A model generated the notes under the pieces. The model ran no database searches and was not told where the DNA came from. It was given only the letters and a program-made list of their open reading frames with translations. Position numbers and translations under genes: made by a program. Shown here piece after piece: positions 32,205-34,685 of a stretch of DNA of 39,260 nucleotides. The stretch covers positions 1 to 39,260 of the forward strand of contig RFPI01000009.1 of assembly GCA_009926205.1 (NCBI GenBank), read 5' to 3'. Every line of letters begins with the position of its first letter. Positions within the stretch are counted from its first letter, which is position 1. This DNA comes from Methylophilaceae bacterium (GTDB lineage: Bacteria; Pseudomonadota; Gammaproteobacteria; Burkholderiales; Methylophilaceae).

Positions 32205-33443
32205 ATGTCGTCCAAAATAAAACTGCCGTCATACGGTGAAAAAATTTCCGTCAATGCTGACAATAGCTTGAATGTACCCGACCAACCCATTATCCCATTT
32301 ATTGAAGGTGATGGCATTGGCATTGATATTACGCCCGCCATGCATCAAGTGATTGACCACGCCGTTAGCAAAGCCTATCAGAACAAGCGCAAAATTGCTT
32401 GGATGGAAGTGTATGCAGGGGAAAAATCCACCAAAGTCTATGACGCCAATACATGGCTGCCTGAAGAAACGATGCAGGCGGTGAAAGACTACGTGGTTTC
32501 TATCAAAGGACCTTTGACCACGCCAGTAGGTGGCGGCATGCGCTCGCTGAATGTAACGCTTAGACAAGAATTGGACTTATATGTATGTCTACGCCCTATC
32601 CAATACTTTACTGGCGTCCCTAGTCCATTAAAGCACCCAGAAAAAACCGATATGGTGATTTTCCGGGAAAATACCGAAGACATATACGCTGGTATTGAGT
32701 GGGCAGCAGGGACTCCAGAAGTAGAAAAAGTGATTAGCTTTTTAAGCGACATGGGCGCACGCAAAAAAATTCGTTTCCCAGAAAGCTCAGCCATAGGCAT
32801 CAAGCCTGTCTCCATAGACGGCAGTCAGCGTTTAGTGCGTAAAGCCATTCAGTATGCTATCGATAACAATCGCAAATCCGTCACTATTGCTCATAAGGGC
32901 AATATCATGAAATTCACAGAAGGGGGTTTCAGAGACTGGGGCTATCAAGTAGCTAAAGAGGAATTTGGCGCAGTTGAAATCGACGGCGGCCCATGGTGCA
33001 AGTTACCTAATGGGATCGTGATTAAAGATTGTATTGCGGATGCATTCCTGCAAGAGATCTTGTTACATCCAAGCGATTACGATGTTGTCGCCACACTCAA
33101 TTTAAATGGTGACTATGTATCTGATGCGCTTGCAGCTCAGGTAGGTGGTATAGGCATAGCACCAGGTGCAAATTTATCTGATACGGTCGCGATGTTTGAG
33201 GCCACACATGGAACAGCGCCCAAAATTGCCGGAAAAAATATTGCCAACCCCAGCTCATTGATATTGTCAGCGGAAATGATGTTGCGACATTTGGGTTGGA
33301 CAGAGGCTGCGGATTTAGTGATTCAAGCAGTCAGCAAGGCCATCGCTTCTAAACGAGTGACGCAAGATTTCTCCTCACAAATGGAGGGAGCGACACAAGT
33401 AGGAACGCTGGAATTTGCCCAAGAAATCATCCGCCACATGTAA
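32205..33443 (+). CDS. icd: NADP-dependent isocitrate dehydrogenase
   Basis: Converts isocitrate to 2-oxoglutarate. 412 residues, the E. coli-type homodimer. [17 protein letters not shown] holds the serine that is phosphorylated in E. coli, the substrate arginines follow, and [14 protein letters not shown] and [11 protein letters not shown] are the metal- and cofactor-binding stretches. TAAGGGAAATT is the ribosome-binding site. In methylotrophs with an incomplete TCA cycle this enzyme mainly supplies 2-oxoglutarate for glutamate. Confidence 0.97.
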
Positions 33444-33464
33444 AAATGTAGTGGATTGCATAAC

Positions 33465-33493
33465 AAAAAGGCCTGAGAAATCAGGCCTTTTTT
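33465..33493. terminator. Bidirectional terminator between icd and cspA
   Basis: AAAAA, GGCCTGA, a GAAA tetraloop, TCAGGCC and six T. The stem is perfect, and both flanking runs are present, so it can end icd on the plus strand and cspA on the minus strand. Confidence 0.92.
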
Positions 33494-33504
33494 CATTATC
33501 TGGA

Positions 33505-33711
33505 TTAAGCTGCTTTTTGAATATTAGAGGCTTGCTTGCCTTTAGCGCCTTCAGTTACATCAAATGTAACGCGTTGGCCTTCTTTCAAGCTTTTATAGCC
33601 AGATTCAACAATCGCTGAGAAGTGGGCGAACAAATCATCACCACCATCATCAGGAGTAATGAAACCAAAACCCTTAGAATCATTGAACCATTTTACGGTA
33701 CCTGTTGCCAT
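33505..33711 (-). CDS. cspA: Cold-shock-domain RNA chaperone, CspA family
   Basis: 68-residue OB-fold protein that melts RNA secondary structure. RNP1 is KGFGFI at 13-18 and RNP2 LFAHF at 27-31, with the aromatic surface residues Trp8, Phe15, Phe17, Phe28 and Phe31 present. AAGGAAA precedes the ATG by 8 bases. The leader is about 108 nt and contains hairpins, and the promoter is close to consensus with phased T-tracts upstream, which suggests strong, structure-controlled expression. Which Csp paralogue it equals, and whether it is cold-induced, cannot be told. Confidence 0.96.
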
Positions 33712-33754
33712 TTATTACTTTCCTTACTTATCACAAAAGGGTTTCCCCCCAAAA

Positions 33755-33771
33755 TGTTTGACTTTCAAACA
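33755..33771 (-). other. Stem-loop in the cspA leader
   Basis: The minus strand reads TGTTTGA-AAG-TCAAACA, a perfect 7-base stem with a 3-base loop, about 44-60 bases before the ATG. A second small GGG-GAAA-CCC hairpin lies between it and the ribosome-binding site. Structured leaders control cspA mRNA stability and translation in E. coli; the sequence here is different. Confidence 0.5.
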
Positions 33772-33826
33772 ATTGACCCTTGTGTATAGAGCATTTGTTA
33801 TTCGAAATCTCAAACTCCGGTCTGTC

Positions 33827-33855
33827 GTTTTACTTTTGTTTATTAAAACTGTCAA
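33827..33855 (-). promoter_or_regulatory. cspA promoter
   Basis: On the minus strand a perfect TTGACA (33850-33855) and TAAAAC (33827-33832) are 17 bases apart. The predicted start near 33820 gives a leader of about 108 bases. This is the best promoter match in the window. Confidence 0.75.
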
Positions 33856-33856
33856 G

Positions 33857-33897
33857 CAATTTTTTACAGCCTGTCACATTTTTTTACAATTTTTTAC
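33857..33897 (-). repeat. Three phased T-tract repeats upstream of the cspA promoter
   Basis: On the plus strand CAATTTTTTAC (33857-33867), CATTTTTTTAC (33877-33887) and CAATTTTTTAC (33887-33897) lie 20 and 10 bases apart, whole turns of the helix. They cover about -38 to -78 relative to the predicted cspA start, where A-tracts can act as UP elements or bend DNA. Confidence 0.6.
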
Positions 33898-33915
33898 TTT
33901 TGGCGTATTTGTCGT

Positions 33916-34641
33916 TTATTTTTTACCCAAGGCCTTTTCAATTTCTGCCGCAGGATAGGCGCCTGTCATCCTTTTTCCATCAGCAAAAAATATTGTGGGC
34001 GTGCTGCTCACCGCATATTTTTTGGCAACGGCAGCAATTTTATCCAGTGGCACATCGCATGTATTGGTCTTTTTGGGCAACGTACCCTGCATCACCCAAT
34101 CCTGCCAAGCTTTAGCACGATCAGGCGAGCACCATATCTGTTTGGCCTTATTCGCAGCATCTGGGTGCAACTGATCGAGCGGAAGCAAGAAGGTGTAAAT
34201 CGTGACATCGGTTAAATCAACCAACTCATTTTGCTCTAAGCGCTTGCAAAACGGACAATCAGGATCAGAAAATACTGCCATCTTGCGGCTACCATTCCCC
34301 TTCACTACCTTGACGGCTAAATCTAAGGGCAAACTGGCAAAGTCGATTTTATTTAATTCATTCAGTCGCTCTGAGGTCATGTCTTTTTTGCTTTTAGGGT
34401 CCACGACGCGACCATCCACAATCAAGAAGCTAAATTTCTCATCGGTATAAATTAATTGTCCACCGATATACACCTCATATAGGCCAGCGTATGGAGTTTT
34501 GCTAATACTATCCACGGTAAACTTTGGATAGGCAGCTTCTATCATTTTCTTCAATGCGGCTTCGTTGGCAGACGCACTCGTCGCTATTAAAAAGCTAGCA
34601 ATCAGTAAGATTCTGGCGCACATATGATGGGGGAATTTCAT
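33916..34641 (-). CDS. dsbC: Thiol:disulfide interchange protein DsbC
   Basis: Periplasmic disulfide isomerase. From ATG 34641 (GAAGGA 7 bases upstream) the chain has 241 residues with a signal peptide ending TSASA (cleavage about 25/26). The N-terminal dimerisation domain covers about 27-85. The thioredoxin domain carries the active site CPFC at 129-132 in FSDPDCPFCKRL, the second cysteine pair (QIWCSP and NTCDVP), and the cis-proline in SSTPTIFF. An upstream in-frame GTG (34680) adds 13 unlikely residues. It is the last gene of the pepP-ubiH run. Confidence 0.93.
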   Translation of the reverse strand: MKFPHHMCARILLIASFLIATSASANEAALKKMIEAAYPKFTVDSISKTPYAGLYEVYIGGQLIYTDEKFSFLIVDGRVVDPKSKKDMTSERLNELNKIDFASLPLDLAVKVVKGNGSRKMAVFSDPDCPFCKRLEQNELVDLTDVTIYTFLLPLDQLHPDAANKAKQIWCSPDRAKAWQDWVMQGTLPKKTNTCDVPLDKIAAVAKKYAVSSTPTIFFADGKRMTGAYPAAEIEKALGKK

Positions 34642-34685
34642 TTTTTTCCTTCGCTGTTCAGTGTAAAAGTTATCTAACACCCTAT

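Follow-up and report, generated by a model that had tools for sequence, protein, structure and literature searches.

The window, i.e. the whole stretch of 39,260 nucleotides analysed here (contig RFPI01000009.1), belongs to a Methylophilaceae genome of 1,506,408 bases (96% complete), the sole genome of its genus in the sample. It harbours a cold-shock gene (csp), preceded by a dsbC-like gene of the same orientation and followed by icd, which converges on csp. The features of the locus are listed below.

33465-33493, between the converging icd and csp: inverted repeat AAAAAGGCCTGAGAAATCAGGCCTTTTTT, recognised by eye
33505..33711, minus strand: csp, encoding a 68-aa cold-shock-domain protein (Pfam CSD, E 2.1e-30)
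33712..33820, minus strand: csp mRNA leader with conserved stem-loops (covered by the match of model R1 at 33826-33713)
33827..33832, minus strand: csp -10 hexamer TAAAAC, weak, 17 bases from the -35 hexamer; +1 predicted near 33820
33850..33855, minus strand: csp -35 hexamer TTGACA, perfect
33857..33867, minus strand: proximal unit GTAAAAAATTG, with A6 at 33865-33860 (about -45 to -40), an UP-element-like proximal site
33871..33888, minus strand: probable decayed duplicate of 33868-33849 (A-tract and -35), TGTAAAAAAATG--TGACAG versus TGTAAAAAATTGCTTGACAG
33877..33887, minus strand: middle unit GTAAAAAAATG, with A7 at 33885-33879 (about -65 to -59)
33887..33897, minus strand: distal unit GTAAAAAATTG, with A6 at 33895-33890 (about -75 to -70)
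33916..34680, minus strand: dsbC-like gene, start codon uncertain (Pfam DsbC_N and Thioredoxin_2)

The inverted repeat between icd and csp, which is absent from the output of the terminator scan, is probably a terminator serving both genes. The same scan, covering 33440-34000, found no minus-strand terminator between dsbC and csp, so that read-through into csp is possible.

The three units were recognised in the first-pass annotation as near-identical elements lying 20 and 10 bases apart, at about -38 to -78 of a promoter with a perfect -35 hexamer and 17-base spacing, and this description agrees with the sequence at the exact positions given. On the plus strand, three 11-mers CA(A/T)TTTTTTAC start at 33857, 33877 and 33887, i.e. 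with separations of 20 and then 10 bases; CAATTTTTTAC occupies the first and the last position and CATTTTTTTAC the second, base 33887 is common to the middle and distal units, and the window contains no further copy on either strand. With +1 set at 33820, the array extends from about -37 to -77, and TTGACA (33855-33850) is indeed followed at 17 bases by a -10 hexamer, albeit the weak TAAAAC. Since csp is encoded on the minus strand, the plus-strand T-tracts are A-tracts on the gene strand, where the units appear as A6, A7 and A6 runs whose centres lie at about -42.5, -62 and -72.5 relative to the +1 predicted for csp. A fourth A6 run (33924-33919), unlisted in the annotation, corresponds to two lysine codons preceding the dsbC stop and is in phase with the array at 10.0 bp per turn and out of phase at 10.5.

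The density of A-tracts at this site is beyond chance, and the phase of the three tracts taken alone is marginal. The arrangement A6-N2-6-A6-N12-17-A6 occurs once in the 1,506,408-base genome, while the looser criterion of three A6 runs with 0-30 bases between neighbours yields 20 overlapping matches genome-wide, which merge into 11 places, the array included. Within the window, 41 of the 78,400 overlapping 60-bp segments (both strands) contain at least three A6 runs. Compared with random placement, the phase of the three tracts gives p = 0.009 at 10.0 bp per turn, 0.035 at 10.3, 0.074 at 10.5 and 0.13 at 10.7. Three of the 11 merged places lie in contig C10 and, judged by eye, are apparently lysine-alanine coding repeats.

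The promoter itself is shared within the family. The pattern TTGAC[A/T]-17-TA[TAC]AA is common to Methylophilaceae csp genes: it was present in 39 of the 40 loci of the first set, the exception (L022, identical with L237) having no -10 at 17-base spacing, and was parsed in 138 of 151 family csp loci, repeats of one place included. The other 13 were dropped, the parser having found no promoter and start codon of the required form, or the stretch being truncated or a placeholder. Clustering at <75% ungapped identity over 60 bp left 82 representatives, the window among them, all of which fit by construction, as the parser demanded 17-base spacing and either TTGAC or TTGTTT. The -35 hexamers of this set are TTGACA (41), TTGACT (39) and TTGTTT (2), and the -10 hexamers TATAAA (36), TAAAAA (29), TACAAA (10), TAAAAC (6) and TACAAG (1). 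A sigma-70 consensus scan of 33440-34000, the rule of which requires T as the final -10 base, misses the csp promoter and reports one plus-strand site, 33863-33890, at chance level (1 versus 1.3 expected). In four other loci (L045, L052, L066 and L104), csp promoters of the Oxalobacteraceae/Burkholderiaceae type were seen, with TTGAC-17-AACAAT replacing TA.AA.

In addition to the hexamers, the family shares the proximal A-tract. A run of at least four A (A4+) between -13 and -2 relative to the -35 hexamer is present in 52 of the 82 family promoters, the window's included, compared with 16, 9, 12 and 9 of 82 in segments of the same size further upstream and with a mean of 8 and a maximum of 17 in 300 shuffles. 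It occurs in at least one promoter of 17 of the 21 genus groups. It is absent from 30 of the 82, including all six promoters of genus group g13, and scarce in g20 (2/9) and g22 (2/8). Outside the family the preference is weak at most: the proximal tract was detected in 13 of 46 csp loci (the non-redundant part of 58 loci, out of 82, with TTGAC upstream), against 10, 3 and 2 in the three segments that follow upstream.

Such a position is that of the proximal site of an UP element. According to the accessible part of PMC2613000, the proximal site spans about -45 to -37 and the distal one about -58 to -45, and either or both may be contacted. In the window, the A6 run at -45 to -40 provides an A/T-rich site directly upstream of -35, as in UP elements of the A-tract type; unlike in these, the region of the distal subsite (-58 to -46, TGTGACAGGCTGT) is not A/T-rich, 7 of its 13 bases being G or C, and further tracts follow at -62 and -72.5. 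The host also encodes the presumed partner: the genome has one match to the C-terminal domain of the RNA polymerase alpha subunit (PF03118, above the cut-off), and R265, K291, N294 and K298, named as DNA contacts in the available text of PMC7822876, are all present by position counting. The suggestion of an UP element in the first-pass annotation is thus supported for the proximal tract, by its position, its occurrence in 52 of 82 promoters and an alpha domain with the contact residues; the outer two tracts are lineage-specific.

The annotation had proposed to look for the tracts in the csp regions of relatives. As described above, the promoter and the proximal tract are common to the family; the outer two tracts are not conserved, and a conserved promoter with non-conserved tracts, regarded in the annotation as speaking against its proposal, is what was found for two of the three. 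Only 3 of the 82 promoters, namely those of the window, L009 and L026, have at least three A5 runs on the strand of the gene. Locus L181, which by eye has the same dsbC-csp order, contains one run of at least five A and lacks the middle and distal units. The distance from the dsbC stop to -35 is 60 bases in the window, 14 in L181, 14 in L017 and 24 in L019 (the dsbC ends of the latter two were recognised by reading the sequence), so that the window gap is, by eye, 36-46 bases longer. Part of the extra length resembles the promoter itself: the putative duplicate at 33871..33888 aligns to the segment of proximal A-tract and -35 with 17 of 18 bases identical and a single gap of two bases (p = 0.0005 when the upstream piece was shuffled 2000 times), while the segment of the middle unit gives p = 0.06 against the promoter of L181 and p = 0.89 against that of L017. 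We take the outer tracts to have been gained locally in this lineage, probably by duplication in the case of the middle one. A further pair of loci, L180 and L181, have nearly identical csp leaders and quite different DNA just upstream of -35, which indicates that the stretch above -35 turns over fast.

In a rival explanation the outer tracts do nothing, being leftovers of a local duplication in an A/T-rich intergenic gap, with their phase a by-product of the 20-base unit. The duplicate alignment (p = 0.0005), the 36-46 additional bases relative to L017, L019 and L181, and the modest phase signal of the array when judged by itself (p = 0.07 at 10.5 bp) are all consistent with this explanation, which is to be taken seriously and is nevertheless rather doubtful; it is opposed by the csp promoters of other genus groups, which also tend to phase their distal tracts. 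In 77 representatives the distal A4+ tracts are no commoner than in shuffles (43 against 37.9, sd 3.8), and their spacing to the proximal tract falls preferentially close to multiples of 10 bp. The mean cosine in this set is 0.50 at 10.0 bp and 0.45 at 10.25 bp, values reached in 0 of 400 shuffles each, and 0.31 at 10.5 bp (p = 0.005), with no signal at 11. Under the strictest clustering (identity <0.65, 51 representatives), the signal of A4+ tracts weakened, with p rising to 0.018 at 10.0 and to 0.10 at 10.5. With one vote per genus group and the window excluded, 0 of 400 shuffles reached the observed value at 10.0 and p was 0.043 at 10.5 for A4+ (15 groups), and p was 0.003 and 0.020, respectively, for A5+ (seven groups); in this grouping, five of 8 representatives without a genome handle were assigned to genus groups and three to two ad hoc groups, and two Methylotenera loci among the 8 may belong to g6. 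Background pairs of A-tracts from the rest of the window and 29 family loci were unphased (631 A4 pairs, mean cosine -0.06 at 10.0 bp, and 101 A5 pairs). One must bear in mind that these tests were run with between three and seven periods, with two lengths of tract and at three cut-offs for clustering, which could flatter the result. Nonetheless, phasing in relatives, being independent of the window, is the best support for the view of the annotation that tract register matters, strong at 10-10.25 bp and weaker at the canonical 10.5. Helical phasing of A-tracts with promoter parts is described for Synechocystis in the accessible text of PMC9825172; there it is a genome-wide pattern tied to supercoiling, whereas one gene family was examined here.

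The annotation had also suggested curved DNA, which could add cold sensitivity at the level of initiation. As a DNA thermometer, the phased tracts would bend the promoter, the bend would grow in the cold, and stronger wrapping or alpha contact would raise csp transcription. Three near-phase tracts beside the -35 of a cold-shock gene and the common phasing in relatives would suit such a device. A precedent is the plc promoter of Clostridium perfringens, which reportedly carries phased A-tracts that form low-temperature-dependent bent DNA upstream. The likeness consists in several phased A-tracts upstream of -35; in the present array, which is known from its sequence, the tracts lie 20 and 10 bp apart and the outer ones are unconserved. 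No account of phased A-tracts at a csp promoter was found among the matches listed in the literature on promoter A-tracts and curvature (mostly non-subscription). Bending was predicted with a crude wedge model, with parameters from the literature and no temperature term, and its controls behaved as expected (87 for phased and 26 for antiphased tracts). The predicted bend of 58 degrees over 53 bp lies in about the top 2% of the window, which favours curvature, and ranks only 16th among the 82 family csp promoters; over about 42 bp the predicted 52 degrees were matched or exceeded by 96 of 500 same-base shuffles. The 53-bp measure was used for insertions between the middle and the proximal tract, to which the 42-bp maximum is insensitive: 5 bp lowered the predicted bend to 36-48 degrees and 10 bp to 43-49, and, as the 10-bp insertion fails to restore the bend, register carries little weight in the wedge model. 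Curvature is possible but, according to the model, not special, and the suggestion of curved DNA is weak. Together with the poor conservation of the outer tracts, these results make the thermometer reading unlikely. The highest predicted bend of the 82 (107 degrees) was obtained upstream of csp in L026, where A- and T-tracts lie about 10 bp apart and TTGTTT serves as -35. Still less probable, and indeed very unlikely, is that the 11-mer is an operator, bound either by a regulator or by a nucleoid protein resembling IHF or H-NS. The helical register of the near-identical units and an IHF-like match with one mismatch over the proximal tract (33854-33866) would fit an operator. However, GTAAAAAAWTG has 7 copies genome-wide, four of them outside the array (3 for the reversed-pattern control), too few for the operator of a regulator, which was rejected; in relatives the common part is, by eye, the A-run and not the 11-mer; and IHF matches with at most one mismatch are a common kind of site, the window having 70 versus 52 expected (as many in 2 of 100 shuffles). 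The H-NS variant was likewise rejected: the 96%-complete genome gave no PF00816 match, with Escherichia coli positive among the 14 control genomes.

Resting on the observed sequence, the promoter and proximal tract common to the family, the phasing in relatives and the alpha domain, the reading we favour, with moderate confidence, is that the csp promoter is an ordinary one of the sigma-70 type and the array its upstream portion, an UP-like docking site for alpha that has been locally extended. The proximal tract would serve as a dock for the alpha C-terminal domain, and at least the middle tract would have arisen when the stretch comprising A-tract and -35 was duplicated locally. About two and three turns farther upstream and facing roughly the same side of the helix, the outer tracts would be within reach of a second alpha C-terminal domain; contacts of alpha extend up to -90 according to the accessible part of PMC5101437. 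As a lineage-specific extension, the outer two tracts may add alpha docking, and would then contribute modestly to promoter strength. The array would then be a plain example of a cold-shock promoter that has retained one A-tract for polymerase docking and acquired further ones in register, probably through duplication. Should bending or docking of alpha prove stronger in the cold, csp would be under cold control at both the transcriptional and the mRNA level.

Should this locus respond to cold, the structured leader of the mRNA is a likelier source of the response than bending of the DNA. A leader model (A1, R1) was built from 22 leaders, the window's included, the members of which match by construction. 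It matched 139 of 187 genomes of the family, 40 of 250 of the order, 7 of these within the family, and 1 of 274 of the class, namely the window's own; in these searches stricter filters were used and weak matches lost. In all five non-family genomes checked by coordinates the match adjoins csp. Both sides have changed in 17 of the 23 pairs, with 90 such cells versus 28.7 in shuffles, as counted in an alignment of 96 matches (98 loci, 89 distinct rows) that leans to the model. A pseudoknot between AGGC at the 5' end of the leader and the loop of the last hairpin was considered and rejected: 81.8% of the cells are paired, and shuffles reached the observed value in 44 of 500 cases, as well as in 254 for pairs changed on both sides, 134 for cells so changed, 13 for pair types and 49 for the covariation score. 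Nor is a thermometer that simply hides the Shine-Dalgarno site supported: between 5 and 37 C, this site is predicted to be 66-81% unpaired and the start codon 31-51%.

The nearest described RNA is the cspA thermoregulator (RF01766), likewise a structured csp mRNA leader with the same kind of gene downstream. The Rfam model, in contrast, spans the coding region. Submitted alone, the leader of the window and two others reached the gathering level of no Rfam family, and RF01766 was not listed for that of the window; with the coding region included, the window's csp (L002) stayed below the cut-off of RF01766 (62.3 versus 78 bits), which was passed, coding region included, by 4 of 12 non-family Betaproteobacterial loci (3 distinct sequences). 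The only one of these also run without its coding region, L094, then fell below the gathering level for every Rfam family. Matches to the cspA leader are reported for Herbaspirillum in the accessible parts of PMC7011215 and PMC6337395, and no description of the present leader was encountered among the literature matches listed. We found no Rfam model of its own for the Betaproteobacterial csp leader.

By analogy, the conserved, covarying leader is a likelier seat of cold control than DNA bending, its part in such control being a guess from cspA of E. coli. That Methylophilaceae csp genes sense cold twice, through a ladder of helically phased A-tracts on one face of the DNA, acting as a DNA thermometer by way of the alpha C-terminal domains, and through a conserved Betaproteobacterial leader RNA acting as thermosensor, seems quite improbable. 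Apart from the promoter, the conserved leader offers a lead towards a named RNA family. By eye, the leaders of L045, L052, L066 and L104 look different.
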